Below, in pieces: positions 43,789-62,558 of a stretch of DNA of 64,000 nucleotides. The stretch covers positions 124,001-188,000 of the forward strand of contig NZ_JAODIW010000005.1 in assembly GCF_026586625.1 (NCBI RefSeq), in the 5' to 3' direction. The notes under the pieces are model-generated. The model saw only the letters and a program-made list of their open reading frames with translations. It did no database searches and was not told the DNA's origin. Numbering within the stretch: the stretch's first letter is position 1; every line of letters starts with the position of its first letter. The position numbers were made by a program, and so were the translations under genes. The DNA comes from Halobium salinum. GTDB lineage: Archaea; Halobacteriota; Halobacteria; Halobacteriales; Haloferacaceae.

Positions 43789-44404
43789 CTAGTTAGCCTC
43801 CTCGACCGGTGTTCGTCCATCAAGTGCTTGATACGGCCGTTGAAAATTATACTAGTGGCCGAACAGCGCAAGTCACCGGCGAACGCTCAGCCGACTGCCC
43901 ACCCACGAATTATGGAAGCGGTCGACTCGCATTTTGAAGGTGTGAAACCACTTATCGAGATGGTTTCTGTCGGTATAGTCGACCTGACCGCTCAACCCTA
44001 ATCGAGAGAGGGCAGTCCGGTAGCCGAACTGGTCGACCAGAAACACCGTGTCTTCACAGTCATGTTTCTCAGCGACTCGGTAAAGGGATGCAGCCGCCGG
44101 ATCGGTTCCGTGTCGTTTGAACAGCTGTACGTCGAGAAGTAATTTTGTGTCGAGGTCTATTGCAGCATACAACCAAGATCACTCGCCATTGATTTTGACA
44201 GCGGTTTCGTCGACCGCGACCCGCTTCGGCTGTGCCGTCACCAGAACGCTCCGCGTTCTGGCTGGCTGCACGGAGCTCCGCTCTCGTGAACGAAGGCGGG
44301 TCAGGAACGCTGTCAGCCAAGCGGTGAACCCATTGGAAAATCGCCTGAAACGACCGATCTACGCCGATCAAGTGTAGAATCGCTTCTGTCTCTCTGAGCG
44401 ATAA
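43789..44404 (-). pseudogene. Decayed IS6-type transposase
   Basis: Pieces of one DDE transposase appear in order on the minus strand in more than one frame. AAGLSLRETEAILHLIGVDR lies near 44404-44345, an AIDLDTKLLLDVQLFKRHGTD block near 44172-44100, FLVDQFGYRTALSRLGLSG and TDRNHLDKWFHTFKMRVDRF down to about 43920, and the usual end QRPYQALDGRTPVEEA with a stop at 43789-43791. These are hallmarks of the haloarchaeal IS6 family (ISH15-like). At least two frame changes and missing segments make it inactive. Terminal inverted repeats are not recognisable. Confidence 0.75.
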
Positions 44405-44417
44405 CCCGGCAGCGGGA

Positions 44418-44453
44418 GCGGACGGCGACGCCCGTTAGGGCGTTCGCCGTCCG
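44418..44453. repeat. GC-rich hairpin
   Basis: GCGGACGGCG-ACGCCC, a TTAG-type loop and GGGCGTTCGCCGTCCGC form an almost perfect 16-17 bp stem between 44418 and 44453. It lies beside the 5' end of the transposase relic and could be part of its old end or a terminator-like structure. Confidence 0.4.
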
Positions 44454-45171
44454 CCTCCACGCTGCCAACATTCAAGCGTAGCTGTGTCTAAACTCTCTTT
44501 GAGCAGGTTTTCCCACGGTGGGGGCGAGCAGTCCTATGGCGGCGTCAACTAAAACCAGAGGGACGACAAGTACGAGCAGCGTCACAATGAGCCGTCAGAG
44601 GAGTCGAAGTCCCGTTTAGCCGAGTTCCACAAGATACCATGGAGCATCGCCCGGCCGTCGACGGAATCGAGTCGGTGCGACACGGGTGGTGATTCGCAAC
44701 GCGTGTATTCCGTGTCGTGGTCAGCACCGCTTCGACATCGCTCCTGGTTCGCTGTCGGCACCTACGCGAACACGGCTCCAGCGTCTGCCAACGCCTCAGT
44801 ACCTCTCTCAGTGTCGATAGCCTCGTTCAGCTAGTCAAGGAGATATGGGTGAACCGAACTACGAGTCATGAACCCCGTACTCTCTTCGAGGTGGAGTATG
44901 ATCCCATCTGCTTCTAATTGACTGTCTGCTCGGAGATATGTCTGAGTAGGGCCGGCGAGAAGGCCTTAGAATGACTCGTGACGACCGGTCACCTTACGCA
45001 GTATGGCTGTGAACCGCAACAGGATCGCCCTGGAACTGCCTGCGAGTCGAATACAGATGCAGTAGTACGAGCACCTTCCAGCGACGCCGAGCACTGTTTC
45101 GAAGCCGGGTAGGCAGGGGTCGGTCACTCCTCCTGTCGGCCGGTACAAATATTTGTCAATCGAAGTCGTTC
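44454..45171. other. Gene-free decayed region before the CPBP protease
   Basis: No coding potential is convincing on either strand over these ~700 bp, and I recognise no repeat. A TATA-like AAATATTTG at about 45147-45155 near its right end lies 17-25 bp before the first ATG of the protease gene. Confidence 0.35.
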
Positions 45172-46026
45172 ATGAGCCGTGATATTGTTATGACTCATTC
45201 AAATTCCACCTCCGATAGTAGAGACGTTAAAATCGTCGATATCGCTGCATTTCTCGTTTTGACGTTCGCGTGGTCGTGGGGATTTTGGGGATCAAGAATC
45301 CTCCTGGAACTGGGTCTCATAGAGGGAGCACCGGTCCTGCCGAACCTCGGTGCGTTCGGGCCGACCGTTGCTGCGTTTATCCTCGTCGCGTATGCGAGCG
45401 GGCTCGGGGGCGTACGCCGACTTCTCGGCCGGGCGATACAGCTCGACTACTCCAACCGGTGGCTTCTCGTGGCTCTACTGCTCCCTCCAGCGATTGTCGG
45501 TGGTGCACTCGTGGTTGCGGTCGCCACCGGCACCACACCGACGTTCCCATGGGCTGGTCAACCGATTGTCCTGCTCATCGCGTTCGTCTGGATTCTTCTC
45601 CTGGGCGGGCCGATTCAGGAGGAGTTCGGGTGGCGTGGATACCTCCTTGATCCGCTTCAGGAGCGACTCACCCCCCTCGGTGGTGGAGTCGCAGTCGGTC
45701 TCATCTGGGCCGTCTGGCACCTCCCGCTGTTCTACATCCCGAGCGCGACGATTTACTACCAGAACCCGTTCCTCGGTTTCGTCGTCTCCATTACCCTCCT
45801 CTCCGTGCTGATGACGTGGGTGTACAACAGCACGAACGGGAGCCTGCTTCCAGTGCTTCTCATGCACACGTCGTGGAATTGGGCACAGGGGATGTTTCCC
45901 ATTCTTGAGTCTGACCCGGCCAGTCTCACGATGGTTGGATTGCTCGTAGTTGCCACCGTCGTCGCGGTGATGTACTCTGGGTCGAGGCGACTGGGACGGG
46001 TTGCAGACGTCGCCCGAACGGAGTAA
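45172..46026 (+). CDS. CPBP-family intramembrane metalloprotease
   Basis: A 284-residue protein with about eight transmembrane segments. The three CPBP/Abi motifs are clear: EEFGWRGYLLDPL (about 148-160), WHLPLFYIP (about 182-190) and the last HTSWN (about 225-229), which hold the glutamates and histidines of the metal site. Relatives include CAAX prenyl proteases and bacteriocin-immunity proteins. The first ATG (45172) is used; a second one six codons later is also possible. Surroundings give no substrate clue. Composition is lower in GC than the catabolic region. Confidence 0.87.
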   Translation: MSRDIVMTHSNSTSDSRDVKIVDIAAFLVLTFAWSWGFWGSRILLELGLIEGAPVLPNLGAFGPTVAAFILVAYASGLGGVRRLLGRAIQLDYSNRWLLVALLLPPAIVGGALVVAVATGTTPTFPWAGQPIVLLIAFVWILLLGGPIQEEFGWRGYLLDPLQERLTPLGGGVAVGLIWAVWHLPLFYIPSATIYYQNPFLGFVVSITLLSVLMTWVYNSTNGSLLPVLLMHTSWNWAQGMFPILESDPASLTMVGLLVVATVVAVMYSGSRRLGRVADVARTE

Positions 46027-46076
46027 ATCTATCGAAGGGGGATACCGGCTGTCGTCGGTGAATTGACTCTCTCCAG

Positions 46077-46132
46077 TCTTCTGAACACACCCCCTGACTG
46101 TTACTCTTCTGAACACACCCCCTGACTGTTAC
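46077..46132. repeat. Exact 28-bp tandem duplication
   Basis: A 28-bp unit beginning TCTTCTGAACACACCCCC occurs at 46077-46104 and again without change at 46105-46132. It lies 50 bp after the protease stop, in non-coding DNA, and includes GAACACAC, similar to the left end of the dispersed hairpin repeats. Confidence 0.6.
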
Positions 46133-46203
46133 ACACCGTTTTTGACGACGTTCGGGTAGATTTTTTCGGGCGCGCTGAACTCAGGGTGCGAGTCGGTCAG
46201 CTA

Positions 46204-46422
46204 CTAGCTACCGCCGGACTGGTCGAACAGCGCCACGACCGTGAACCCAATATAGAACCCCAACGTGTGGATGCCGACCTCAGTGACGAACTCGGTGACC
46301 GTCTTGATGTCCTTCAGATGAATGAAGAGAACGTCGGTCGTCACGACGAAGACGGTAACTAGGAGACAGAGCGTGAAGCGACGAATACTGAAGAGTGGGC
46401 TCAAACGGAGGAAGTCGAACAT
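46204..46422 (-). CDS. Small membrane protein, unknown
   Basis: A 72-residue ORF beginning MFDFLRLSPLFSIRR with two hydrophobic segments (about 18-37 and 49-66). No family is recognised. Composition (Phe, Val, Thr-rich helices; basic N-terminus) is like a genuine inner-membrane protein. It lies just left of repeat copy A and reads away from it. Confidence 0.5.
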   Translation of the reverse strand: MFDFLRLSPLFSIRRFTLCLLVTVFVVTTDVLFIHLKDIKTVTEFVTEVGIHTLGFYIGFTVVALFDQSGGS

Positions 46423-46484
46423 TCCTGCGCGATGTGTTCAGAACGGACGAGCAAGGGTCTTGCGTCCTGATGGGCCGTCTGCTG

Positions 46485-46597
46485 AACACACGCTATGTCT
46501 CTAGGAGCCCGAGTTAGTTCGATTGCCGTTGGAAGAAAGAGCCTTCGTTTCGACCGGATTCGACGTGGCTCAGCTTTTGGAGTTGTGCCGCGCATTC
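46485..46597 (+). repeat. Hairpin repeat copy A (~113 bp)
   Basis: A copy of the dispersed repeat. The left arm reads ACGCTATGTCTCTAGGAGC, the core TTGGAAGAAAGAGCC...TCGTTTCGACCGGATTCGACG, and the right arm GTGGCTCAGCTTTTGGAG ending TGTGCCGCG. The arms are roughly inverted repeats of each other. It separates the two small minus-strand membrane genes and lies 32 bp beyond the stop of the gene at 46630. Confidence 0.75.
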
Positions 46598-46629
46598 AGT
46601 AACGAGTAACCTCGGTGAAGCGACGTTCG

Positions 46630-46989
46630 TTAGCTGGAGCGTGGATTGATTGGAGGAGTGGGTTCGTCTTTTTGCCCACCGACCACAATAAGCAAAGCCG
46701 CAATACCAACGATGAAATACAGTACCAAATCGTTTTGAATGCCCTGCTGAGTGAAAGTCTGGATGGCAAATGTAGTAGCCATCACTCCGAATCCGATAGC
46801 TGTCCAACGAGCCCTGTATGCAAGGCCGACAACGGTTCCCCACGTAAGCAACGTCGTCATAGTCGCTCCGACGACCGTCGAAACCGAGACACCAGCTACC
46901 GCTGACGGGGAGAATATCTGAAGGAGAGCAAGAACCCCGATAGCAGGGAATCCGACGACAGCAAGTGGACGATACAGCGCGGATGTCAC
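46630..46989 (-). CDS. Small four-helix membrane protein, unknown
   Basis: A 119-residue ORF with four hydrophobic segments (about 8-30, 34-52, 62-80, 86-103) and a charged C-terminus (GGQKDEPTPP). I do not recognise the family. It occupies the unit between repeat copies A and B, reading leftward, with its stop 32 bp from copy A and its start 58 bp from copy B. Confidence 0.55.
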   Translation of the reverse strand: MTSALYRPLAVVGFPAIGVLALLQIFSPSAVAGVSVSTVVGATMTTLLTWGTVVGLAYRARWTAIGFGVMATTFAIQTFTQQGIQNDLVLYFIVGIAALLIVVGGQKDEPTPPINPRSS

Positions 46990-47047
46990 TAATGAATCAT
47001 TGAACCCCGGTCAATGTGAAGGTTGTGTGGGGGTGACTCCATTGCTG

Positions 47048-47159
47048 AACTCACGCTCTGTTTCCAACATCTGAGTCACCACGACCACTGCTGAAGAAAA
47101 CACCCTTTGTTCCAACCGAGTTCAACGTGACTCAGCTTCTATAGCGGTGCCGCGAACCT
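47048..47159 (+). repeat. Hairpin repeat copy B (~112 bp)
   Basis: Same organisation as copy A: left arm AACTCACGCTCTGTTTCC with CTGAGTCA, core TGAAGAAAACACCCTTTGTT and CCGAGTTCAACG, right arm TGACTCAGCTTCTATAG, end GCCGCGAACCT. The inner CTGAGTCA and TGACTCAG pair. It precedes the two-gene unit at 47190. Confidence 0.75.
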
Positions 47160-47189
47160 AGGAGCGATGAGCGAATACCGAACTGCTGG

Positions 47190-47465
47190 ATGGAAAGTTT
47201 CATTGACATAGCGCAAAGCTTCCTTTACACAATGGTCGAAATCCCACTCATAGGACGAGAGGATGAACGGGCGCAGGAGGTCGGTCGGCGGGCTGGAACT
47301 AACGCGTTTGTCGTCCTCTCAGCGCTGTTCATCGCGATTATCGTCCAACATGTCGTGACCGGGGGTGTCGGGAGCCTTGACGCCGTAGGTTTCGAGATAG
47401 GGGCCTTACTGCTCGGCTGGATTGTTTACGTTGCCACAGGCATCTACTATACCCGAACGATGTGA
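47190..47465 (+). CDS. Small membrane protein paired with an Xre regulator
   Basis: A 91-residue protein with a charged loop (IGREDERAQEVGRRAG) between an amphipathic start and two hydrophobic segments (about 41-58 and 66-87). It lies 3 bp upstream of the Xre gene at 47469, so the two are one operon. Membrane proteins with an N-terminal loop of this kind followed by a small Xre regulator recur in archaea; some are of the DUF2178 sort, but I am not certain of that assignment. Confidence 0.65.
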   Translation: MESFIDIAQSFLYTMVEIPLIGREDERAQEVGRRAGTNAFVVLSALFIAIIVQHVVTGGVGSLDAVGFEIGALLLGWIVYVATGIYYTRTM

Positions 47466-47468
47466 CTC

Positions 47469-47669
47469 ATGGAAAATGACCTCGCTGTTCGACGAGCCAA
47501 GCACGAATTGACCCAGAGCGACCTAGCAGACGCAGTAGATGTATCCCGGCAGACAATTAGTGCAATTGAAGGGGGCCGCTACAACCCCAGTCTTGATCTT
47601 GCGTTTCGATTCGCGCAGTATTTCGACTGTTCTATCGAGGATATATTTGAACCGCCACAAGATGGTTGA
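47469..47669 (+). CDS. Small Xre-family (HTH_3) transcription regulator
   Basis: A 66-residue single-domain regulator: RRAKHELTQSDLADAVDVSR then QTISAIEGGRYNPSLDLAFR, the canonical Cro/C1 helix-turn-helix, ending in FDCSIEDIFEP. Length and ending match small YgzD/HigA-like regulators. It follows the membrane protein with 3 bp between, and its TGA stop (47667-47669) overlaps the first bases of repeat copy C. Confidence 0.88.
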   Translation: MENDLAVRRAKHELTQSDLADAVDVSRQTISAIEGGRYNPSLDLAFRFAQYFDCSIEDIFEPPQDG

Positions 47670-47777
47670 CTCACGCTCTGTCTTTAGAGCTGAGTCACTC
47701 CGGACTACCTTGAAAGAAACACGCTTTGTTTCGACCGGGTTCGACGTGAGTCCGCTCTTGGAGACATGCCGCGAGTC
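47668..47777 (+). repeat. Hairpin repeat copy C (~110 bp), starting in the stop codon of the Xre gene
   Basis: It begins GACTCACGCTCTGTC inside the TGA of the preceding gene and ends GACATGCCGCGAGTC at 47777. The terminal octamer GACTCACG and CGTGAGTC further in are complementary, and AGAGCTGAGTCA pairs partly with GAGTCCGCTCTT. The core GAAAGAAACACGCTTTGTTT is also self-complementary. Confidence 0.8.
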
Positions 47778-47819
47778 TAGCAAAGATGGATTTATCCAAG
47801 TGACAATTCAAGCAATTGT

Positions 47820-48023
47820 ATGTCGAATGCGTTGCAGCTCTATTACCGTTTAGAGGAGCGGGTTGAGGAATTACCTCGATTGTGGTATGCCGTCGCGATT
47901 GGCTCGGCTTCTTGTCTTGGAATGCTCGCAGGGAGTCTCGTGCTGAAGGAAATCACGGTCGCCGACGCAGCCATGATGGGAGTTATGGCGACTATTGTCT
48001 ACTATGCGCTTGAACCCCGATAG
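47820..48023 (+). CDS. Small two-helix membrane protein, unknown
   Basis: A 67-residue ORF starting MSNALQLYYRLEERVEELPR, then two hydrophobic segments (about 21-40 and 45-62). It fills the ~390-bp unit between repeats C and D. Family unknown. The balance of charged head and paired helices makes it a credible protein. Confidence 0.55.
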   Translation: MSNALQLYYRLEERVEELPRLWYAVAIGSASCLGMLAGSLVLKEITVADAAMMGVMATIVYYALEPR

Positions 48024-48063
48024 AACAGCCGTTTCCACTACGAGATAGAGAGGTGCTGCGTTA

Positions 48064-48173
48064 GACCCACGCTCTATCTCTAGGAGCTGAGTCGGTGCGG
48101 GCCACGGTGAAAGAAACTGCCTTTGTTTCGACCGTGATTAACGTGACTCAACCCCTAGAGACGTGCCGCGTCT
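48064..48173 (+). repeat. Hairpin repeat copy D (~110 bp)
   Basis: Left arm GACCCACGCTCTATCTCTAG with GAGCTGAGTC, core GTGAAAGAAACTGCCTTTGT, right arm TGACTCAACCCCTAGAGACG and end GTGCCGCGTCTT. CTCTAG in the left arm pairs with CTAGAG in the right. It follows the gene ending at 48023 by 40 bp. Confidence 0.75.
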
Positions 48174-48288
48174 TGACTGAGACAACGGCGATCTCGGTGG
48201 GTGATGAGTTTAACCCACGTACCACTCTTTGACTGCCGTACCATACGCCTGAAATACCTCAGCGTCCTGTTTCCAGTAAGAATAACTC

Positions 48289-48624
48289 ATGAATCGGAAA
48301 GCGCTTTTCAGTCTCGTAGGCGTTATCACATTGCTCGGGGTTGCTGGCGTCGGCTTCGCGGCAACGGGTGGCTTGACGGCTGCAGAACCCACCCTCTCTG
48401 AACAGGAAGCTATGAATATCGCAGAAGAGCGAGTCGGGGGAACCGCTCAGACCATCGAACAGGAGAACGAAGGTGGCGGTCCCGTTTACGAAGTTCTGGT
48501 GCAGCAGTCAGACGGGGAGATGAAGGAAGTAGAGATCGACGGGGACAGCGGCGAAGTGCTGGAAGTCGAGAACGCCGATAAGGAAGAGAACGAAGAGAAC
48601 GAAGACGAAGCCGACGAGAACTGA
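48289..48624 (+). CDS. PepSY-domain exported/membrane-anchored protein
   Basis: A 111-residue protein with an N-terminal signal-anchor (residues 5-27, ending FAATGG), then a PepSY domain: LSEQEAMNIAEERVGGTAQT, a short strand pair GGPVYEVLVQQ and VEIDGDSGEVLEVE. The tail is very acidic (about residues 95-111). PepSY proteins inhibit peptidases or shape local extracellular environment. It could be relevant to the subtilase at 52678, but nothing ties them directly. Its promoter region includes a TATA-like AATACC. Confidence 0.82.
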   Translation: MNRKALFSLVGVITLLGVAGVGFAATGGLTAAEPTLSEQEAMNIAEERVGGTAQTIEQENEGGGPVYEVLVQQSDGEMKEVEIDGDSGEVLEVENADKEENEENEDEADEN

Positions 48625-48731
48625 CGGGAGAGTCAGAGCTGTCCCGGAAGGTCTCTCCCTCGTATTCTCCGAGAGTTTCCATTCCAATACCTTGCTTTAA
48701 AACCCGTGCCAAGTCCATCTATCGCAACTCT

Positions 48732-49013
48732 ATGGTCGAAATCGAAATACTAGTTAATGCTGTTACTCTCGTCGTCGTTCTCGTTGTTTTCACGTTCGTC
48801 AGTATCGCGTTCTATCGAACCCGTATTCGGCGTCTCCTCGTCCTCCTCCTGTTGAGCGCACTACTGGGTGTGAATATGGTCGTCTCGATCGCCGAAGACC
48901 TCCTCGAGGGCACGATCCCGTTCATCGAGGTGTTCACGAGTTTACTCTCCCTTGGAATTGCTCTCCTGCTTCTGATCACACTTATGCGTCAGTTCTCGTG
49001 GGAGCCACGATGA
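48732..49013 (+). CDS. Small three-helix membrane protein
   Basis: A 93-residue protein with three hydrophobic segments (about 5-27, 34-53 and 65-86) and a short RTRIRR loop. Such proteins often precede a winged-helix regulator in haloarchaea (DUF7521-like), and here one follows 35 bp downstream. Function unknown. Confidence 0.65.
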   Translation: MVEIEILVNAVTLVVVLVVFTFVSIAFYRTRIRRLLVLLLLSALLGVNMVVSIAEDLLEGTIPFIEVFTSLLSLGIALLLLITLMRQFSWEPR

Positions 49014-49048
49014 ATTCGTGTCCGATCTACAGTTGCCGGTGGTGAGAA

Positions 49049-49594
49049 ATGGAGGGCTCCGACCGGGACAGAGAACCATCAGACGCCAATGATCTGTCGC
49101 TGGCTACTCGGAGAGAAATCTTCGGTCGTGTGAAGGACAACCCCGGCATCCACTTCAGTCAACTCAAACGAGATCTCGATATGGAGACTGGACTCCTTCA
49201 GTATCACCTGAGAGAACTCGAGGAGTACGGTGCCCTCGAAAGTGAGGAACATCAGGGAAAACGTCGAGTCTTCGTCGCCCGTGAACTCAACGAGGAGGAG
49301 CGGTCGATCCTCGCGGTGTTGCGATACGAGACGACTCGACGTATTCTTCTCTACCTGCTAGAGAACGGACCGGCACGGAACGGGGAGATCGCTGAAGCCG
49401 TGGGAGTAACCCCGGCGACGATTTCCTATCATATGTCGACCTTAGCGGACAACGACATCATCGACTCGGTACGGGACGGTCGGGCGACGCAGTACGAAGT
49501 GACTAATGAAGAACTCGTCGTCCAGCTCCTTCTCCGGTACCGAGAGAGTTTCGTCGACCGCGCTGTCGACCGAATCATCGACTTCTGGGGATGA
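49049..49594 (+). CDS. Tandem winged-helix transcription regulator
   Basis: A 181-residue regulator with two winged-helix domains. The first (about 22-75) reads FGRVKDNPGIHFSQLKRDLD and GLLQYHLRELEEYGALE; the second (about 95-160) reads LLYLLENGPARNGEIAEAVG and PATISYHMSTLADNDIIDSV. This duplicated ArsR-like arrangement is common in haloarchaea. It is probably co-transcribed with the membrane protein at 48732 and may control it. Confidence 0.87.
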   Translation: MEGSDRDREPSDANDLSLATRREIFGRVKDNPGIHFSQLKRDLDMETGLLQYHLRELEEYGALESEEHQGKRRVFVARELNEEERSILAVLRYETTRRILLYLLENGPARNGEIAEAVGVTPATISYHMSTLADNDIIDSVRDGRATQYEVTNEELVVQLLLRYRESFVDRAVDRIIDFWG

Positions 49595-49632
49595 GACAGA
49601 GAACCGATTGGTCGATTTTCCGAGGACCTCGG

Positions 49633-50649
49633 TCAGCCCCCTCCGCTTATGCGCTCAGCCAAGGACGGTGTGGCGATCGTTGCGCCTGCCGCGACAGCAG
49701 TACCGACGACCGTGACCAGAAGAGGTGGAGAGGTAACGTAAATACCGACCCACAGAGCGGCAATCGGAATACCTGCGATGATCGTTTCTCGAAGACCGAG
49801 CTGGCAAGAAGGTCGAACCGCATACCAGGCAACCCCTGCACCGATAGATCCACCGAGCCACTGACCGGCGCTCCAGACTTCCCCGGCTGGGGAGACAGCG
49901 CTTGCACCGACTGCAAGGACTCCAAGAACCGACCCCAGAACGAACACGCGCAACGGCTCCCGACTCCCGACCGAGGCAGCGACCGCGAAGAGGCTCACGC
50001 CAGCAATTACTCCGACTACGATGTCGACGAGGAAGTGGACGCCGAGGGCGATTCGAGAGAGAGCTACGAGGGCGATTCCGATAGCGGCGACCACCCATCT
50101 ACTAGTTCGTGATCCCACCTCTAACCGGTAAGCTAACGCTGAAAAGACGGCTGCCGTTCCGAGAGCGTGTCCGCTCGGGAACGCATACCCAGCTCCGGTC
50201 GTAATACTCCGAAATGGACCACCGAGGACGGCTGGAAGCCAAGCCGGAAGCTGTACCGTCCCGGCCCCGGGAGGACGCGGCGCGATGAAGAAGTTCTTGA
50301 GTAGATCGATGAACGAAAACGCTGCGAACGTTACTGCGAGTACGAATGCTCCTTCTTGTGGCCTCTGAACGAGCGACCGCTGTGTCCCAATTAGATAGAG
50401 GAGCGTAGCGATGAGTAGGAGAAACCACGGATCGCCGAACTGAGTGACGAACCCAGCAACTGTGAGAGCAATCCCCGTTTGGAATGAGAAAATTTGGAAA
50501 AAGCCGATACCTCGGCGGGGGACGGCAATGTCGAATACTACTACGGAAGCTATGATGGCCGCAGTTAACGCGGTCAGGACAGCCGCAATGCGCTGCCAAT
50601 TAAATCCATCTCCCTCTGATCGATTAGGGATTCCGTCACTAATCGTCAT
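49633..50649 (-). CDS. PAP2-superfamily membrane phosphatase
   Basis: A 338-residue protein with eight or more transmembrane helices. The three phosphatase motifs are visible: KNFFIAPRP (about 117-125), PSGHA (about 159-163) and SRIALGVHFLVD (about 198-209), giving the catalytic His pair and Arg/Lys residues. It would dephosphorylate a lipid phosphate or polyprenyl diphosphate on the outer face. The C-terminal third adds helices beyond the minimal domain. It is convergent with the winged-helix gene. Confidence 0.87.
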   Translation of the reverse strand: MTISDGIPNRSEGDGFNWQRIAAVLTALTAAIIASVVVFDIAVPRRGIGFFQIFSFQTGIALTVAGFVTQFGDPWFLLLIATLLYLIGTQRSLVQRPQEGAFVLAVTFAAFSFIDLLKNFFIAPRPPGAGTVQLPAWLPAVLGGPFRSITTGAGYAFPSGHALGTAAVFSALAYRLEVGSRTSRWVVAAIGIALVALSRIALGVHFLVDIVVGVIAGVSLFAVAASVGSREPLRVFVLGSVLGVLAVGASAVSPAGEVWSAGQWLGGSIGAGVAWYAVRPSCQLGLRETIIAGIPIAALWVGIYVTSPPLLVTVVGTAVAAGATIATPSLAERISGGG

Positions 50650-51039
50650 GAGGTGTCTGTCCTGTCGATCGTCGGTCTGATTACTCCTGAAGAGGTGGTA
50701 CAGAAATCGCCAATCACAAGCAGAAGAGAAGGTCTACTATCTGAGTTCGGCTGACCCGATGTGGTGTTCATCTACGTCTCAATAATCGCGTCTCCCACTT
50801 GGGGCGTCTGGTAGAGCAGTCTAAGAGTAGCAGATCAGTCAAGATAGCTGTAAATTCCACTCTATGTGGATAGAATCGTCCTCCAAGACACACGCTCTGT
50901 CTCTATGAGATGAATCACTGACAACTACGGTGAACGAAAGTCGTGCACCGGATCCACCTTCCGAAGGCACGAAAGTCGAAGGTATCGAAGACTCGACAGC
51001 GAGAGGCACAAAAGCGTGAAGCCAGGAACGGTAGCTCTA
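50650..51039. other. Intergenic stretch with truncated repeat
   Basis: No gene is evident in 390 bp. It contains the left half of hairpin repeat copy G (50887-50948). The remainder is AT-richer than neighbours with no clear structure. Confidence 0.4.
50887..50948 (+). repeat. Truncated hairpin repeat copy G (left half)
   Basis: GACACACGCTCTGTCTCTAT followed by GAGATGAATCACTGAC and CGGTGAACGAAAG matches the left arm and core start of the family, after which similarity stops. The right arm is absent, apart from a CATGCCGCGAG sequence (51745-51755) about 800 bp away which may be its detached right end, with vapBC in between. Confidence 0.6.
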
Positions 51040-51435
51040 TCAATACGATTCCACTTCGATCCTCTCGAATTTCTCGAAATCCTTAGTGTTGTCCGTAACG
51101 ACCGGCGCACCGAGGTCGTTGGCCACGCCCGCAAGGAGGATGTCCGTCGCCAACTTCTCGTGATACTCGCCCGCTTCTCTCAGTTCGGCCTCGATCTCCG
51201 CCGCTTCGAGACCATGCGAAAGGAGGTACGGCTCGACTCGAACCCATTGGAAGTCGTTGCGGATGTCCTGCTGAGTGGGCGTTGGAGACTGAATCAGAAA
51301 GCGCCCTACAGCGATTTCCTTGAGGTTGATAGTGGACGTGACGAGCGTCTCACTCTCATGCTCAGAGAGGTAGTCCTCAACCCGAGATTCACCGTTCTGA
51401 TGGTCGATCAAAAACGTCGTGTCGAGAAACTTCAT
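51040..51435 (-). CDS. vapC: VapC-type PIN-domain toxin
   Basis: A 131-residue PIN-domain protein: D5 in FLDTTFLID, E40 in NLKEIAVG, D98 in ATDILLAG and D114 in VTDNTKDF give the four acidic residues of the nuclease site. VapC toxins cleave tRNA or rRNA. Its ATG immediately follows the antitoxin stop (TGA ATG), the usual coupled antitoxin-toxin order. Confidence 0.87.
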   Translation of the reverse strand: MKFLDTTFLIDHQNGESRVEDYLSEHESETLVTSTINLKEIAVGRFLIQSPTPTQQDIRNDFQWVRVEPYLLSHGLEAAEIEAELREAGEYHEKLATDILLAGVANDLGAPVVTDNTKDFEKFERIEVESY

Positions 51436-51714
51436 TCAGGCTTCCCGCTCCTCCTCATCGTCACCCGACTGTATCCGCTCGATGACCTCGTCTTGGCGCT
51501 TCGAGAGGCCCTCACTCATCTCTTCACGCTGGTCCTTGACGACTCTCTCGAACTCCTCAGCGTCCTCTTTCATCCGCCCGAACGAGTGGCGCCAATCAGA
51601 CTGCTCACCGTCGAGGATTCTATCCACGACGTCGCTGAAGCTCTCTCCCTCCCGCTTCTCTGCGGCGAGGCGCTCGTAAACCTCATCCCGGAGTCCGACA
51701 GTCTTCGTTCCCAT
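51436..51714 (-). CDS. vapB: VapB-type antitoxin
   Basis: A 92-residue protein with an N-terminal GTKTVGLRDEVYERLAAEKR ribbon-helix-like domain and EGESFSDVVDRILDG, as in archaeal VapB (DUF217-like) antitoxins, then a charged helical C-terminus that would wrap the toxin. The ATG at 51712-51714 begins MGTKTVGL; an in-frame upstream start adds 11 residues. It directly precedes vapC. Confidence 0.83.
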   Translation of the reverse strand: MGTKTVGLRDEVYERLAAEKREGESFSDVVDRILDGEQSDWRHSFGRMKEDAEEFERVVKDQREEMSEGLSKRQDEVIERIQSGDDEEEREA

Positions 51715-51807
51715 GGTCTGTGTTTGTGTATGCAAACACAAAAACATGCCGCGAGCGTATCAGCTAAGCAGCCAAACATACTTACTGACCGACAGCAACA
51801 GACCGAC

Positions 51808-52017
51808 ATGGTTAGCGTCTCTAAGTACTGGTCCCGCAAACGCGGTCGAGGTCTTCTTATCGCAGTATCCGCCCTCATAGCCATCCAACTCTCCTACGAT
51901 TACTGGGCGGCAACGGGACAAGGTAAGAGTTACATTATTTTCATTGCTGTGAGCGTACTGTTGGGTGTACTCTTTGCTATACTTGCGCTATTTGACAACG
52001 GTTCGATGTCGGACTGA
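51808..52017 (+). CDS. Small two-helix membrane protein, unknown
   Basis: A 69-residue ORF with a basic start (YWSRKRGRG), two hydrophobic segments (about 15-33 and 41-60) and an acidic end. No family recognised. Its stop codon TGA (52015-52017) is directly followed by repeat copy E at 52018, like the Xre gene and copy C. Confidence 0.55.
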   Translation: MVSVSKYWSRKRGRGLLIAVSALIAIQLSYDYWAATGQGKSYIIFIAVSVLLGVLFAILALFDNGSMSD

Positions 52018-52128
52018 GACACACGCTCTGACTTTAGGAGCTGAGTCAGTTCGGACTAGGTTGGAAGAAACACACTTTGTTCCGACTGGGCTCGACGTGA
52101 CTCAGCTCCAAGAGACGCGCCGCGAGTC
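52018..52128 (+). repeat. Hairpin repeat copy E (111 bp), most symmetric copy
   Basis: Arms 52018-52048 and 52098-52128 are 31-nt imperfect inverted repeats (22 of 31 positions pair by my count), and the inner 12 bp are perfect: GGAGCTGAGTCA with TGACTCAGCTCC. The 49-nt centre contains GGAAGAAACACACTTTGTTCC, itself able to fold. It begins the base after the TGA of the ORF at 51808. Confidence 0.85.
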
Positions 52129-52200
52129 TATTGGATGCGACCTCTTGACCAATGCTCAGCAACTGTAAAGACAGCTGAAATACAAGAAGGACTCGAGAAC

Positions 52201-52443
52201 ATGTCCTTTCTGCGCCGAGTGTGGTGGAACCTCTCTCCTACCGCTCGCGTTGGGCTTTTCGGCCTCGCCACGATCACCTCATTCGCAGTCTGTGTCAGTG
52301 GATGGCTGATTGTCCGGCTCCAACTCCTTACTCCTGCGGAGCGGGAGCTGCTGACTGTTCCAATGCTCATCTGTGGGCTGTTTCTTCTTGGGTTGTCTGT
52401 CTTCATCGCACTAGATTCACCCGCTACTCCGACTGCTGAATAG
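52201..52443 (+). CDS. Small two-helix membrane protein, unknown
   Basis: An 80-residue ORF with hydrophobic segments at about 19-42 and 53-71 and a SPATPTAE end. It fills the unit between copies E and H; its TAG stop (52441-52443) overlaps the first base of copy H. Unlike the other tiny ORFs it has a strongly basic head (FLRRVWW). No family recognised. Confidence 0.55.
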   Translation: MSFLRRVWWNLSPTARVGLFGLATITSFAVCVSGWLIVRLQLLTPAERELLTVPMLICGLFLLGLSVFIALDSPATPTAE

Positions 52444-52497
52444 ACACTCTGTCTGTAGGAGTTAAGTCAGTTCAGCCACCGCTGAAAGAAGCGAAGG
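52443..52497 (+). repeat. Truncated hairpin repeat copy H (left half)
   Basis: GACACTCTGTCTGTAGGAGT followed by TAAGTCAGTTCAGCC and CGCTGAAAGAAG matches the left arm and early core of the family, then diverges. It starts in the stop codon of the gene at 52201, the same position as copies C and E. Confidence 0.65.
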
Positions 52498-52677
52498 AAC
52501 ACAGACTGTCGCTCTCTGGTCGTGTTCAGTTGAGCGCGAAAGCGAAGTGAGCATACCTCTCCCGTGCAGACGGCACGGCTCTGGAGGGCCAAACAAACCA
52601 GACGTCTCCGAGCCGCCTGACTGGACGAAAAGCAGTTTTTTCGATGCGTCTGTGGTCTTTCTTCGGTATGACTCGGT

Positions 52678-54150
52678 TTAGGGGCCCCTACCGTTGTCAG
52701 GACCTTGGGAAGATTCAGACGCACCGCCTTCACTACCAGTACCGAGTGACCGGACAGCAGCCCCGGTATCGAGGTGACCTTCACCGTGGTACAACGGACT
52801 GCCGAGGTCGGTTGCGGTCTCCTCTAAGTGATTTCGGATTTCGTCAGGAGTCATCTCTGGTCGGAGACTTCGGATAAGCGCAACGACTCCTGCAACCTGT
52901 GGTGAAGCCATACTCGTTCCAGCTTTCCACCCGTATGAGGGCTCGAACGGCGGGTCGGGAGCATCGTCGTCATCAGTATCTTCCCCAGAAAAGGTAGTAC
53001 TCAGCACAAGGTCGTATTTCGCGTTCTCGACCGAGTCTAGTGCTTCGAGATCGGCGTCACCTCCTGGTGCACTGATATCGACAGCTTCCGGCCCGTAGTT
53101 AGTATAGAATGCGGGGTCGTGCGTCGGTTCTTCGAGGTGCTTGAGGGCCGCTCGGTAGTTACGCTGTTCCTGACCTTTGCCGTTGCCTGGCCCACCCCAC
53201 CGATAACCGATCGGACCGGTTGCACTGATGCTCATGTAGTTGTCAGCCTCGTTCGGGAGGCTGATGACGTCACCATCATCGTCGAGATTCGCGCCGTCGT
53301 TCCCGGCTGCCGCGACAAGCATCATTCCTTGCTCGTTCGCATACTCACTGGAAGACGTATACGCTTCCCTACGCACTTCGGCTGCCTCGGACCCTTTCGG
53401 AAGAGGATACGCACCGAGGCTCAAATTCGCAACGTCTGCATCGATGTTCGCGCTGTAAACGATAGCCGCGATGATATTCCCGAACATCGCAAACGGACCG
53501 GAGAACACTCGACAAGCGACAAGGTCGGTATCGGGTGCCATGCCGAGAACTCCGATCCCGTTGTTATCTTCTGCAGCGACGATTCCACCAACGTGCGTTC
53601 CGTGGTCACTTCCGACCGGATTGAAATCACCGCTGTCCTGAGTGAAGTTTTCAGAAAGATCGGAATTGAGAGGTCCGTCTAAATCCGGATGGTCCCCGAA
53701 GATACCCGAGTCGATGATGGAAACACGGGTCCCTTCGCCCCGTGTGATGCCGTGGACATCGGGTACGTTTTGGGCTTGCTTGTCCCACTGTAGATAGTAC
53801 AGTGGGTCGCGTTCATCCTTTGGACCGCCCCAGGGTGGAGGCCCTCCAGGCTTGCTATCGCGCTCAACCGGCGGGCCGGCGTCATCTCGGTCCTCGAGTG
53901 AGAGTTTGATGTCCGGTTCTACTCGTTTTTCGTCTACTGCAGAAGGATTGCCTCGAACGACGGCGAATTCGATTTCATTGAGCCAGTAGATGATTTCGAC
54001 GTCGTCGAACCGTCTCTTCGACAAGCCGCTCGTATCCACGATGTATCGCTCCTCTGCCGGAGCAGCCGAAACTGGGATTGTACCGAGCGTGATTCCACCG
54101 ACTGCAGCACCTGTCTTCGTCAGAAACGATCGACGGCTATGATCTTCCAT
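52678..54150 (-). CDS. Tat-exported S8 subtilase (halolysin-like)
   Basis: A 490-residue secreted serine protease. A Tat signal (SRRSFLTKTG, residues 5-14) with AlaAla cleavage region near 30 precedes a ~100-residue propeptide-like part. The catalytic triad is present: D147 in SIIDSGIFGDHPDLD, H183 in SDHGTHVGGI and a Ser in AGTSMASPQVAG (about 430). VAAAGNDG provides the oxyanion Asn region. An acidic insert (DTDDDDAPDPP) and a Gly/Ser-rich tail follow. No C-terminal PKD domain is present. It lies in the accessory region beside a low-GC island. Confidence 0.9.
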   Translation of the reverse strand: MEDHSRRSFLTKTGAAVGGITLGTIPVSAAPAEERYIVDTSGLSKRRFDDVEIIYWLNEIEFAVVRGNPSAVDEKRVEPDIKLSLEDRDDAGPPVERDSKPGGPPPWGGPKDERDPLYYLQWDKQAQNVPDVHGITRGEGTRVSIIDSGIFGDHPDLDGPLNSDLSENFTQDSGDFNPVGSDHGTHVGGIVAAEDNNGIGVLGMAPDTDLVACRVFSGPFAMFGNIIAAIVYSANIDADVANLSLGAYPLPKGSEAAEVRREAYTSSSEYANEQGMMLVAAAGNDGANLDDDGDVISLPNEADNYMSISATGPIGYRWGGPGNGKGQEQRNYRAALKHLEEPTHDPAFYTNYGPEAVDISAPGGDADLEALDSVENAKYDLVLSTTFSGEDTDDDDAPDPPFEPSYGWKAGTSMASPQVAGVVALIRSLRPEMTPDEIRNHLEETATDLGSPLYHGEGHLDTGAAVRSLGTGSEGGASESSQGPDNGRGP

Positions 54151-54631
54151 TGCAGATCATGTTCAATCAGTCAGTTGATTATGAGTTTTGAAACCCAACA
54201 AATTATCTTATTTATATATTTAATTTCACCTATTAGATTTTATTATATAATTTGAAATATTCTATTGAATAACTAGTATTTTCATACGAAATTCAAACAG
54301 AGGCATAGGACAAACCGAACTATTCGACAATCAGATCTCATCAGTGGTATTCGACCGTCGCGGAAGCAGATGCTGTGCCTTGGAAGAGTGCTTCAATGAC
54401 CTGCTTCTTGAGCAACAGCATGTCCTCACAAAACACTAACTCGATAGTAGAGGGCAGATACTCATTGAACAGGGCTCACTCAACTCGAGCAGGAGGCAGA
54501 AACACGAGCTGCGTAGGAACGGCCCACTGTTCCTCCTCTGTCACGGTAGTTTGCTCACACCTGGAATCGAACTCCGATTGGTGCTGTGTGAATGTATCAG
54601 CCACCTTCTCTGTCCGTTCATTATAATGAAT
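54151..54631. other. AT-rich island and gene-free gap
   Basis: From about 54180 to 54300 the sequence is strikingly AT-rich (runs such as TATTTATATATTTAATTT), rare in haloarchaea, and no gene is seen. The rest up to 54,631 is unassigned. The subtilase promoter probably lies within the first 50 bp of the gap. Confidence 0.5.
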
Positions 54632-54766
54632 GCAAGGCGAAAACCCGCGCCTTCAGGCGCGGGAGGAAACCGACAATCCCTCTTACAAACCACGCACGAT
54701 CGCAGGCCGGCTCCCCAACGCCAACCCAAGTTATTATAAACACTAACCACCACGTATGAAATACAG

Positions 54767-56005
54767 ATGGTGGACGACTTACGCACTCGAACCGTCCCCG
54801 TCAAACTCGATGTGGGCGAGAGTGCCGCCAGTCTCCTCCACCAGACAACCGACCACTTCCTCGACGCCGCCAACCACGTCGTCACCGTCGCGTGGGAACC
54901 TGACTGGAAGATCACCAGCAAACAGAAACTCCACGACCAAACGTACTACGACGTTCGAGACGACTCGCCACTTCCGGCCAACCTCGTGCAATCCGCACGA
55001 AACCGAGCCGCAGAAGCCGTCAAAGGCTGTATCGAACGCTGGAAGGAAGGCAAGAACGCCTCGAAACCACATTTCACGTCACGGTTCGCCAGTTACGACG
55101 TCCGAACCGTCACCGTCAACGACGACCACTGCACGCTTGCCACTATCGACGGGCGAGTTACTGCAGAGTTCGTTCTACCGGACGAACAGCGAGATACGCC
55201 GCACTCGGCGTACCTGTTCAACGATGACTACGACGTGAAAGGAGCCACGCTCCACTACGACACAGTTGAGGACTGCTTCTACCTCCATGTGCGGACAAAG
55301 CCCGCCGTGGAGAACGATGATGCCGACACAGGCGACGCCAAGCACGTCTCCGTCCTTGGTGTTGACCTCGGCATCACAAACATCGCAACCACCTCAACTG
55401 GACGCTTCTGGAGCGGTGGCGAACTCAACCACTGGCACCGCGAATACGAGAAACGCCGAGGGGACCTGCAACAGACCGGGACCCGATGGGCACACAACAA
55501 CGTCCAACGAGTCGGTCGCAAGCAAACCGGACGGTTCGAGCAGATGCTTCATACCATCTCAAACGACCTGGTTGAAGAAGCTCTTGAGAACGACTGTACG
55601 CATATCGTGTTCGAGCAACTCAAGGGCATCCGCGAACGCCTACCGCACGCGAAGGCGGTTCACAAGTGGGCGTTCCACCGCCTATTCGAGTACGTCACGT
55701 ACAAGGCCGAGTCTGAAGGGCTTGTGGTGAAGCAGGTTAATCCTGCGTACACGAGTCAACGTTGCTCAAAATGTGGATTCACCCACAAGGATAATCGTCC
55801 GCACAACAACGGGCAGGACGAGTTCGAGTGTTTGAAATGTGGGTACGATGTTCACGCGGATTACAATGCGGCGAAGAATATCGGTCTGAAGTATCTCCGC
55901 GACCAGCAAAAGTCTGGGCGTGGAGGCGCACCTGTAGGCGTGCGCTTGAACAGCGGGACGTTAAACGTGAACGGCGAATATTCGCCTACCGCTCTCAGCG
56001 GTTAG
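54767..56005 (+). CDS. tnpB: TnpB, RNA-guided nuclease of IS1341-type element
   Basis: A 412-residue TnpB with all RuvC parts: the first Asp in VLGVDLGITN (about 196), the Glu in IVFEQLKGIRE (about 285) and the last Asp in VHADYNAAKNIG (about 367). The zinc ribbon is CSKCGF and CLKCGY. The N-terminal OTU/HTH part is intact, so the protein may be active. The reading frame is uninterrupted with a TATA-like TTATTATAAA at about 54729-54738 upstream. TnpB nucleases use an RNA guide to keep the element at its site. Confidence 0.9.
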   Translation: MVDDLRTRTVPVKLDVGESAASLLHQTTDHFLDAANHVVTVAWEPDWKITSKQKLHDQTYYDVRDDSPLPANLVQSARNRAAEAVKGCIERWKEGKNASKPHFTSRFASYDVRTVTVNDDHCTLATIDGRVTAEFVLPDEQRDTPHSAYLFNDDYDVKGATLHYDTVEDCFYLHVRTKPAVENDDADTGDAKHVSVLGVDLGITNIATTSTGRFWSGGELNHWHREYEKRRGDLQQTGTRWAHNNVQRVGRKQTGRFEQMLHTISNDLVEEALENDCTHIVFEQLKGIRERLPHAKAVHKWAFHRLFEYVTYKAESEGLVVKQVNPAYTSQRCSKCGFTHKDNRPHNNGQDEFECLKCGYDVHADYNAAKNIGLKYLRDQQKSGRGGAPVGVRLNSGTLNVNGEYSPTALSG

Positions 56006-56026
56006 AACGGGAGTCCACGCTGAATG

Positions 56027-56046
56027 CCATGGCGTTCACGCCGTGG
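56027..56046. repeat. Right-end hairpin of the TnpB element
   Basis: CCATGGCG (56027-56034) and CGCCGTGG (56039-56046) pair over 8 bp with one G-T-type mismatch around a TTCA loop. It lies 22 bp after the tnpB stop, where the guide-RNA end of such elements usually folds. Confidence 0.55.
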
Positions 56047-56166
56047 TAGCTTACTGGTGGGTATGTGAGGCAAGCCGAATTCTGCGATCATACCGGGAGA
56101 TACGGTACTTGAGGCAGTTATCTTAGCGATACAACACTTATATGTCTGCATAGAGATGGTTCAGAT

Positions 56167-56994
56167 ATGGTAGGACGATTCACTCGCGGCCTCCGAGTCG
56201 TCGACGACAGCGTCGACGTCTTCCGCGACAATCCCCGCTTGGCCATCCTTCCATTGTTGAGCCTTCTCTCGATTGGAGGTGCATTCGCCATCGTGCTCGG
56301 AACCGCTCTCCGATACGGAGCAGTGAGTTCAGTTCTCACGAGCGACCTCCTCCAGTACGCCGCCATCTTCGTCGCAATCGCAGTTTCGTCGAGCGTCGGG
56401 ACCTTCTTCAACGCCGCTGTGGTCCACTGTGCATTTCAGTACTTTGACGGCAAGGAGACGTCCGTACGTGGTGGACTCGCCGCCGCATGGCAAGTCCGCC
56501 GGAAGATCGCACTCTGGTCAGTGACCGCTGCGACACTCGGGACCGTTCTGTACATCATCGACGAGAACTTCGGTGCGCTGGGATCGCTCGCACGGGTACT
56601 GTTTGACCTTGCCTGGGGTCTGCTGACGTTCTTCGTCATTCCTGTACTCGTACTTGAGGATACGAAGGGCCTCAGACCGCTTCTGCAAGAAAGCGGTACG
56701 GCGTTCCGTGAGACGTGGGGCGAAAGCATCACCGCTTCGCTTGGGATCTCGTTCGTGTTCTTTCCCGTTGGGGTAATCGGACTTAGTGTACTCGGATGGG
56801 CGTATCTGTTCGCAAGCGGTGTCCCAGCACTTCTCATAGGGTCGGCTGGATTCATCGTTCTCGTCGCAGCAATGGTCGCAGCGCAAGTGCTCGGAATGGT
56901 TGCCCGAACAGCTCTTTACCGGTACGCCGTCGCCGATGAGAAGGTCGGTCCGTGTGCAGGCCGGAACCCCGAGACTATCTTCCCATCGGACTGA
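56167..56994 (+). CDS. DUF6159-like multi-pass membrane protein
   Basis: A 275-residue integral membrane protein with about six hydrophobic segments and the typical starts VVDDSVDVFRDNPRLAILPL and SSSVGTFFNAAVVHCAFQYF and FVIPVLVLEDTKGLRPLLQE. These match the DUF6159 family, whose role is unknown. A TATA-like CTTATATGT at 56137-56145 lies 22-30 bp before the ATG. The middle Lys/Arg-rich loops suggest positive-inside topology. Confidence 0.8.
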   Translation: MVGRFTRGLRVVDDSVDVFRDNPRLAILPLLSLLSIGGAFAIVLGTALRYGAVSSVLTSDLLQYAAIFVAIAVSSSVGTFFNAAVVHCAFQYFDGKETSVRGGLAAAWQVRRKIALWSVTAATLGTVLYIIDENFGALGSLARVLFDLAWGLLTFFVIPVLVLEDTKGLRPLLQESGTAFRETWGESITASLGISFVFFPVGVIGLSVLGWAYLFASGVPALLIGSAGFIVLVAAMVAAQVLGMVARTALYRYAVADEKVGPCAGRNPETIFPSD

Positions 56995-57334
56995 AGTACC
57001 TCTCCGGTCCAGCCGTTCTACCGTCGAATGCGAGTTCGACAATGAGTGAACTGATGGACGAATCTCAATCCAGACAACCCCCGGGTGTACGTGTCGGCAA
57101 CGACTACCATGGGTTCTCGTCTAATTTTAGTCACAAAGGAACGCTTTCGGCGGTGAATCATACGGCAGACGGCTAATGCGAATTGTGTCGGAATATCAGT
57201 ATTCAAATCTACCCGTCATTTCGTTTCAGTCGAGAAGATCTACGGGACACGAAGTAAGCTGACGGCGCTGAACTAGTATAGAACTCAGCTATTCACCGGT
57301 AGTGCTAATCTCTCTAGCCGTCAAAATTCTAATG
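56995..57334. other. Gene-free gap
   Basis: I see no convincing gene or repeat in these 340 bp. It lies between the stop codons of convergent membrane-protein genes and might contain terminators, but no clear T-rich run was found. Confidence 0.35.
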
Positions 57335-58807: not shown

Positions 58808-58959
58808 TTAGCCTGTCCTTGTCGACTTCTCGAGCGTCAGCCTCGGAGTCAATCCCCGAGCCACCCGCCTCACGTATCTGTAGCGTTCGAGCAGTCTGCG
58901 AGCGATATTAGTCGCCCCTTGTTCTGGTTCACCCTCTGGGCGGGCGACCAGCGAACCGT

Positions 58960-60378: not shown

Positions 60379-60714
60379 TGGTTGCCCTCTCTCTCGTCGG
60401 TGGATATGTCTGGTGGAACGGCTTTTTGAGTTGAACTGGTGGCATCGAATTGTAGAGTGTGAAGTCCGTGTTCAGCAAAGTGGGAGCGAATTACACAGCA
60501 TATGACAGTAAATGTTTCATCGACCACTCGGGTATCCCCTCTCGTTTGATAAATTCCGGGTCTGTCCAGTCACCAGAACCAGGAGGCCACCGACTTCTGG
60601 CATAGAGCACCAAGAAATTACGTCGCCTCGCTCTTCACGCTCACCGAACACGACCGGATAGGCAGTAGGAATTTTAATTATCGGGGGGTCAAGTTATTGT
60701 GGTGAGACCCTCCA
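60379..60714. other. Divergent intergenic region
   Basis: A TATA-like TTTTAATTATC at about 60671-60681 lies 34-44 bp before the AIM24 gene's ATG at 60715. No minus-strand promoter is striking. No gene is visible. Confidence 0.4.
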
Positions 60715-61392
60715 ATGGAGTACGAATTCACCCACAAGCCATCGTACACGCACTTGATTGTGACTCTGGAACCGAGCGAATCAGTGGTCGCTGAACCGGG
60801 CGCGATGGTCGGTCACTCTGCGAACGTCTCAATGGAAACTGAGACGAGTCGAGATGGGCTGCTCAGTTCCGCAAAGTCATTGCTGGGTGGAGAATCCGCG
60901 TTTGCTAACAAGTTCACTGCCAGAGACGAACCAGGAACAGTAACACTCGCTCCTCCGTCACCGGGCGATATCATGTCCTACGAGCTTCACGAGGAGACTC
61001 TGTACTCTACGGATGGTGCGTTTCTGGCAGGGAGTGACGGCATCGATATCGACTCAGAGCTAGGTGACTTCAAATCGATGTTGGGCGAGGCGAGTTTGAC
61101 TCCCTTGGCGCTGAAGGGGACTGGAACGGTATTCGTCGAAGCGTACGGTGGCTTGGAGAAACTTGAGCTAGCGGCTGATGAGTCCTACGTCTTGGACAAC
61201 GAACACTTGGTCGCATGGGATAACAGCGTCGACTACTCAATTGAGCGAGTCGGAAATCTCAAATCGTCGCTATTGAGTGGTGAGGGGCTTGTTTTCGAGT
61301 TCACCGGACCAGGGACGGTTTGGTACCAGACGCGTGATCTGGACGCGTTAGTGTCGACACTTGCTCAGCGAATGCCCGGTCAAGGACAGTGA
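60715..61392 (+). CDS. AIM24/TIGR00266-family protein
   Basis: A 225-residue beta-rich protein of the AIM24 (TIGR00266) family. Landmarks are EPSESVVAEPGAMVGHSAN (about 22-40), LAPPSPGDIM (about 82-91), a Gly-rich FLAGSDG turn, the VFVEAYGGLEKLEL strand and GEGLVFEFTGPGTVWYQTRD near the end. Mitochondrial AIM24 affects inner-membrane organisation; prokaryotic relatives have unknown function. It stands next to membrane proteins, which suits a membrane-surface role. Confidence 0.85.
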   Translation: MEYEFTHKPSYTHLIVTLEPSESVVAEPGAMVGHSANVSMETETSRDGLLSSAKSLLGGESAFANKFTARDEPGTVTLAPPSPGDIMSYELHEETLYSTDGAFLAGSDGIDIDSELGDFKSMLGEASLTPLALKGTGTVFVEAYGGLEKLELAADESYVLDNEHLVAWDNSVDYSIERVGNLKSSLLSGEGLVFEFTGPGTVWYQTRDLDALVSTLAQRMPGQGQ

Positions 61393-61430
61393 ACATGTCG
61401 ACATTTGTCTCGAACGGGAAAAGAATCCAA

Positions 61431-62515: not shown

Positions 62516-62558
62516 TAGGAGAGGGTCTACATCTCATCTGGTGGGAGCGTCAGTGAAA

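Follow-up and report, generated by a model that had tools for sequence, protein, structure and literature searches.

A probable integrase-linked gene-cassette system with paired end sites in the haloarchaeon Halobium salinum and its relatives

The closest published architecture that we encountered is that of the pdif modules of Acinetobacter plasmids, which, in the accessible sections of PMC7885321, are small, often carry toxin–antitoxin genes, and lie between two inverted box–spacer–box Xer sites; inversions have been seen, as have hybrid sites combining one module's box with the spacer and other box of another. Integron attC sites are described in the accessible part of PMC2727003 as recognised through their folded bottom strand and poorly conserved in sequence, and archaeal integrons, with IntI and/or attC sites, are reported from 75 metagenome-assembled genomes in the available text of PMC9668308, where the terms Halobacter and haloarchaea are absent. 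Here we analysed repeats and small genes in a 64,000-nt stretch of Halobium salinum (the window; C10:124001–188000 of G000, the 4.46-Mb genome in 14 contigs that holds it). The initial annotation had read part of the window as a gene-cassette array with recombination sites at gene ends, formed by a ~110-bp hairpin repeat in full copies A–E and truncated copies G and H. The cassette-array reading held, as entire units travel as blocks and the same contig bears, between such sites, a tyrosine recombinase gene that is intact, and the array probably belongs to an integrase-linked gene-cassette system of haloarchaea. A literature search of open-licence PubMed Central (PMC) papers found no account of such a haloarchaeal system among the papers listed.

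Repeat search confirmed the copies at their annotated places, with A–E all on the + strand. The longest repeat family comprised four copies of 108 nt, 63–78% identical to the reference copy, and copy A fell in an 82-nt family at 68–73% identity. A motif scan, using a motif derived from the window copies themselves, gave 13 matches in the window against 0, 0, 0, 0, 1, and 0 in six dinucleotide-block shuffles, with none at 1–45000 or at 53000–62000. Alignment of copies A–E revealed that both halves are the same ~55-nt end, inverted relative to each other, and lone units elsewhere in G000 carry the R half at one end and the L half at the other; a full copy is therefore the L end of one unit plus the R end of the next. 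What had been annotated as one hairpin site thus proved to be two recombination-type sites back to back, joined by a ~85-nt linker, with a 5-nt gap between the two ends at the centre of 19 of 20 junctions.

Each end consists of a box, 2 nt, an 8-nt spacer, 1 nt, and an inverted box, the boxes being inverted copies of one motif 11 nt apart (GTTAGAC in the genus designated g79, CTAGAG or CTAGAC in G000). A box–spacer–inverted box is the site form used by tyrosine recombinases. The spacer is the best-conserved part of each end and falls into two classes, R (GTGCCGCG) and L (AGAGCGTG), with 35 R, 35 L, and 1 unclassified among the G000 ends. Copies G and H are lone L-type end sites rather than truncated repeats, and copies C, E, and H do adjoin the stop codon of the preceding open reading frame (ORF), the stops lying 1–4 nt ahead of the L spacer (Table 1). 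Several terminal L sites, in several genomes including a Haladaptatus plasmid, are followed by a common outer motif of ~28 nt (like CTTCGGAGGATGGGTTTGATGCGTGAC), and a perfect tandem repeat of 28 bp at 46077–46132 of the window resembles, at its start, the outer part of an L end.

With copy E as query, BLAST found 42 places in G000 at E ≤ 1, and a 54-position end model built from 52 G000 ends detected 81 unit ends at E ≤ 0.1, spread over roughly two dozen places, some of them arrays (e.g., C13:533.4–536 kb). This model matched at E ≤ 3e-4 in at least 11 of 391 genomes of the class, G000 included, a lower bound resulting from strict filters and 14 candidates scored per genome. The richest relatives, G180, G182, and G389, belong to one genus (g79) of another family, of which G257 and G408 hold some sites, and the R2 model, built from g79 only, matched six of the 391 genomes, including G000 with 10 matches (best E 9.8e-11; copy C at E 1.7e-8). 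One named match is the Haladaptatus pallidirubidus plasmid NZ_CP085307; a 7.8-kb "autonomous element" considered there was rejected because its left end is L-type, its right end carries the outer motif of L ends, and the interval contains no annotated recombinase. Two site patterns had no exact match in viral contigs.

Of 32 pairs of facing ends in G000, 31 combined an R with an L. A broader scan for sites, covering loci of eight genomes, gave R plus L as the inward site pair in 117 of 118 cassettes and R–R in none, the sole exception being an L–L unit in G394; some of these loci are orthologous, so not all are independent. Cassette cores measured 0.3–1.3 kb (10th–90th percentile), and 117 of the 118 contained an ORF of at least 45 amino acids (aa), the longest running R to L in 62 and opposite in 55 (one of these in the L–L unit); the longest ORF of a core is not always the real gene. 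The window cargo comprises small proteins that look membrane-like by eye, an Xre-type regulator, a PepSY protein, a helix-turn-helix (HTH) regulator, a PAP2 protein, and a VapBC-like pair, and many g79 cassettes encode short lipoproteins (by eye).

Near-identical cassettes occur at different places (loci L026/L028, L030/L117, L102/L109, L112/L207, L213/L214/L216, L221/L226, and L224/L229). In one moved pair, L117 is the cassette beside the integrase gene of G000 itself and its twin L030 lies at C13:928 kb. Boundaries were compared in nine cassette pairs with 16 end pairs at different loci, three of the nine pairs forming one trio and hence not all independent. Identity outside the cassette was 0.27 at −150 to −43, 0.38 at −42 to −20, and 0.64 at −19 to −10; it then rose to 0.92 in the box, dropped to 0.53 at −2 to −1, and reached 1.00 in the spacer, with 0.95–0.97 inside. 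The jump, to 0.95–1.00 inside, fell exactly at the spacer in all 16 end pairs. These alignments place both core boundaries at the spacer, give each cassette one R and one L end, and assign the arms to what we call the dock.

Our first reading of the units had been a transposon with 55-bp ends, and the initial annotation had allowed for a miniature inverted-repeat transposable element (MITE). An element of this kind, whether a MITE or a small DDE transposon, inserted in tandem and bounded by terminal inverted repeats of ~55 bp, would account for ends that align as inverted repeats tip to tip, for lone units bounded by such ends, and for the constant 5-nt gap between units. The alignments of moved cassettes led us to reject it as having practically no probability: the outer ~40 nt of the repeats stay in place when a segment moves, and a 5-bp target duplication at the tips was found in 0 of 12 units with both edges (0–3 of 5 bases match), as the annotation had already remarked for the array. 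No transposase was recognised by eye, without a profile search, among the longest ORFs of 117 cores. Target duplications, a parent insertion sequence, and immobile units had been named beforehand as grounds for abandoning the cassette reading; no parent insertion sequence was found, and the units do move. Homologous recombination between the ~20-nt arms, swapping cassettes without a site-specific enzyme, is very improbable. The arms are indeed repeats, and genomes with sites but without this integrase exist; however, exchange breaks at the spacer, the cores of L213 and L214 are 95–96% alike although just 11–12 of 19 nt outside the spacer agree, and, of the 30 single-dock cassettes that could be classified, 11 run opposite to the arms.

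The converse arrangement, different cassettes in one dock, was also found. One dock is present in G180, G182, and G389 with flanks that align at 82–88% over 406–650 nt around three unrelated cores, whose BLAST matches are only terminal (40, 17, and 11 nt); we take its neighbours to be a ferredoxin gene and the release-factor gene aRF1. Another dock, behind a thiolase/OB-fold gene pair (by eye), holds different first cassettes in G180, G182, and G408, and the integrase locus of G000 and its G394 counterpart are alike in flanks and arms (86% and 83%) and differ in the ORFs between. Comparison thus shows that the same cassette sits in different docks and that one dock takes different cassettes.

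Mobile gene cassettes adjoin an integrase gene. In G182, a single tyrosine recombinase gene (PF00589) makes up an 838-bp segment flanked by two R ends that face outward. The intact recombinase that the initial annotation had proposed to look for near copies elsewhere was found in G000 itself, between two outward R sites (C10:20343–21143, 266 aa, no internal stop), 75% identical to the G182 gene and about 150 kb from the array; a G180 integrase is likewise placed between outward R sites, so that comparison puts integrase genes between R sites in three genomes. Different cassettes come after the integrase-side R sites in G182, G180, and G000, and at L105 3352–3480 the left integrase-side site stands in tandem copy beside a split integrase. 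With dozens of small gene cassettes and an intact recombinase gene between matching sites, this archaeon appears to own an integron-like gene-swapping system that is built differently. R86, K153, H212, R215, W238, and Y247 were invariant in 14 aligned integrase sequences and are presumably the catalytic residues.

The best NCBIfam match was the archaeal Xer model (24.6 bits for the G000 integrase and 26.8 bits for that of G182, cut-off 220), all matches to E ≤ 1 being Xer-type and far below cut-offs, and the family profile scored solved Xer structures at 33–27 bits and IntI4 at 19 bits. By these profile scores the recombinase appears nearer to Xer than to IntI. Homologues elsewhere in the class were 45–59% identical. 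An ungapped search through 400 nt to either side (flanks being short at two loci) found inverted repeats on both sides at three of 30 integrase loci, those of G000, G182, and G180. The Arch1/Arch2 subgroups of haloarchaeal simple tyrosine recombinases, as presented in the accessible part of PMC8138268, are a possible home for the integrase; the 27 other homologous loci are without flanking inverted sites. The peptide patterns used found no integrase relative in viral contigs, and a single-sequence structure model was uninformative (predicted local distance difference test score 40).

That another recombinase, such as a Xer-type resolvase, moves the cassettes and that the integrase between R sites is a passenger is unlikely. 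Site-bearing genomes without this integrase, the similar placement of an Orc1/Cdc6-like gene, and the use of XerC/XerD by pdif modules (accessible sections of PMC7885321) would suit a passenger; against it, four of nine pairs of outward R–R neighbours, from three genomes and two families, enclose this one integrase, whole or broken (L103, L105, L109, and L117), and no such sites accompany its homologues elsewhere. A fifth pair (L227) encloses a 228-nt piece whose flank resembles an integrase flank at about 77%.

The folding of single copies, which the annotation had proposed to check, gave a divided answer: z scores against shuffles for copies A–E were +1.1, −0.1, −2.1, −3.5, and −3.3, so that folding is stronger than in most shuffles for C, D, and E and no better than in shuffles for A and B. 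Covariation was absent (terms −0.05 for 18 G000 sites and +0.05 for 28 g79 sites), box pairing was 81.3% against 81.6% in shuffles, and the site sequence is conserved, unlike that of fold-recognised sites with poor sequence conservation. Recognition as a hairpin is disfavoured by covariation, box pairing, and, in part, the fold scores. The annotation had found no RYYYAAC/GTTRRRY boxes; the g79 boxes GTTAGAC/GTCTAAC do fit that pattern, but their arrangement differs from that of attC.

These results bear on a true integron or cluster of attC sites lacking an integron-integrase (CALIN), in which an integrase of the IntI type, acting on folded single strands, would move attC cassettes. In favour of it are the arrays of short genes, the inverted arms of the ~110-bp sites, the stop codons found there, the folding of copies C, D, and E, and the g79 boxes. 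The recombinase nearer to Xer and the lack of a covarying fold indicate that this is not an integron, and the exchanged core has two different crossover points, with the arms staying behind, where an integron cassette would carry a whole attC and use one crossover; this reading is strongly disfavoured. The likeness to integrons and CALINs, as far as the accessible parts of PMC9668308 and PMC2727003 describe them, lies in small varied genes in arrays, a tyrosine recombinase beside cassettes at some loci, loci without an integrase, and sites that are alike within one genome. Beyond integrase and fold, the system differs from the integrons of those sources in that each cassette has two distinct end sites, docks are numerous and scattered, and sites lie on both sides of the integrase.

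Overall, the system resembles Acinetobacter pdif modules plus a candidate dedicated integrase. As in the accessible account of PMC7885321, the modules are bounded by two inverted box–spacer–box sites; unlike the pdif modules described there, they have a candidate integrase among the sites, two fixed 8-nt spacer classes marking the ends, arrays in one orientation with a ~85-nt linker, and an archaeal host with most sites on large contigs. XerC/XerD arms with a 6-bp spacer were not encountered, the two boxes being copies of one motif.

We propose that a dock is a pair of inverted arms, each terminating in a box, and that the mobile core, with one or a few small genes, has GTGCCGCG (R) at its start and the complement of AGAGCGTG (L) at its end. 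A core lying between dock arms would thereby have box–2 nt–8-nt spacer–1 nt–inverted box at each end, and strand exchange by the integrase would take place where box and spacer meet. Within arrays, R (or L) sites in direct repeat would release circles of core, L site, and linker, so that linkers may travel with cassettes; the circles would reinsert at an R site and arrays would consequently grow one way. Through a second crossover at L, an exchanged cassette would come to lie between arms that belong to the dock itself.

The two dock arms differ in g79, so cassette orientation can be read there. Arrays contained 26 canonical, 0 inverted, and 27 unclassifiable cassettes, and single docks 19 canonical, 11 inverted, and 9 unclassifiable (Fisher p 0.0004); by this comparison, either orientation occurs in single-cassette docks and one orientation in arrays. 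Outer R arms in G000 were 0.75 alike inside arrays against 0.47 at edges, and L arms 0.63 against 0.54. From arm pattern and orientation we infer one-way array growth from inserted circles, with single docks keeping their own arms.

We lean, on the favourable side of even, towards the fuller claim that haloarchaea own an integron-independent capture system with its own tyrosine integrase. Its cassettes would be double-ended, the 8-nt crossover spacers (R and L) of the two ends being non-identical, and its docks, scattered and with inverted arms, would have their cassettes replaced by paired crossovers. The system would thus be nature's counterpart of recombinase-mediated cassette exchange, with orientation free in single docks and arrays growing in one direction. 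Such a gene-cassette system would have been built separately from integrons and could explain the spread of small membrane, lipoprotein, and toxin–antitoxin genes between haloarchaeal species. It would offer a defined integrase with double-strand sites, where the archaeal cassette systems in the available text of PMC9668308 are integrons of the IntI/attC type from metagenome-assembled genomes; cassette exchange might also gain a salt-tolerant tool.

Several observations weigh against an integrase-linked system. The integrase family is wider than the sites, occurring in 91 of 391 genomes at E ≤ 1e-15 against 11 of 391 with sites (6 of 391 with R2), and at E ≤ 1e-8 it was found in only four of 12 site-bearing genomes (G000, G180, G182, and G151; G408 left out), so that a trans-acting or lost enzyme must be assumed in the other eight. 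Some copies are broken (G180:C14, G180:C3, and G182:C11), and that of G182:C26 is in two pieces. Three of the nine outward R–R pairs enclose an Orc1/Cdc6-like gene (by eye) and one another stretch; position between R sites is therefore not special to the integrase. No empty dock appeared at the ferredoxin locus in eight congeners, where the aRF1-like neighbour lies across unaligned spans of 727 nt (G406), 1372 nt (G407), and perhaps in G409. The spacer identity of 1.00 partly reflects general conservation, and the R1 and motif scans derive from the sites themselves, a circularity that R2 offsets only in part. Strict spacer identity is hard to square with the free orientation of cassettes in single docks, and excision and integration are deduced from comparison, no circle or reaction having been seen.

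Table 1. Features of the window and of related loci (window positions unless a locus is named).
Feature	Position	Strand	Details
Junction A	46485–46593	+	L spacer 46489–46496 (reads ATAGCGTG on −), linker, R spacer 46585–46592 GTGCCGCG
Cassette core A–B (R to L)	46585–47059	+	ORF 46630–46989 (−), 119 aa, membrane-like by eye, no Pfam match
Junction B	47047–47158	+	L spacer 47052–47059, R spacer 47147–47154
Cassette core B–C	47147–47679	+	ORF 47190–47465 (91 aa, membrane-like by eye); ORF 47469–47669 (HTH_3, Xre-type)
Junction C	47664–47780	+	L spacer 47672–47679, R spacer 47766–47773; upstream ORF stop 47667–47669
Cassette core C–D	47766–48075	+	ORF 47820–48023, 67 aa, membrane-like by eye, no Pfam match
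Junction D	48063–48174	+	L spacer 48068–48075, R spacer 48163–48170
Large cassette core D–G	48163–50898	+	PepSY protein 48289–48624; 93-aa ORF 48732–49013; HTH regulator 49049–49594; PAP2 protein 49633–50649 (−)
Copy G, lone L-type end site	50886–50939	+	Spacer 50891–50898; outer motif follows
VapBC-like pair in unit ending at E	51040–51747	−	PIN 51040–51435; VAPB antitoxin (scanned as 51436–51711); R site of this unit not found
Junction E	52017–52130	+	L spacer 52022–52029, R spacer 52117–52124; upstream ORF stop ends at 52017
Cassette core E–H	52117–52452	+	ORF 52135–52443, 102 aa, membrane-like by eye, no Pfam match
Copy H, terminal L-type end site	52438–52491	+	Spacer 52445–52452, 6/8 matches
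Further junction of same kind	62558–62660	−	R spacer 62563–62570
Outer ~28-nt motif	50940–50967; L117 6970–6998 and 9555–9585; L027 665–692; L072 2198–2225 and 10001–10028		Also L114, L119, L120
Orc1/Cdc6-like gene (by eye)	L098 4718–5803; L111 4036–5168; L220 about 280–1750		Bounded by outward R sites in G389 and G180

Rfam revealed no family in window 44000–56500 at gathering scores. The further junction of Table 1 and another at G000:C10:188327–188429 flank a region with a monophosphatase-like gene (by eye), and a TnpB-like ORF (IS200/IS605 type, by eye) lies near the array at window 54767–56005. Contigs C8, C13, C23, and C26 of G182 (L202, L104, L204, and L105) stop no more than about 110 nt from sites, a sign of repeats or of variants produced by rearrangement, as it would seem. 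Very short linkers separate some adjacent cassettes (L224 around 3438 and 2389; L241 4911 in G408), one of them being just the 14-nt palindrome GTCTATCGATAGAC.

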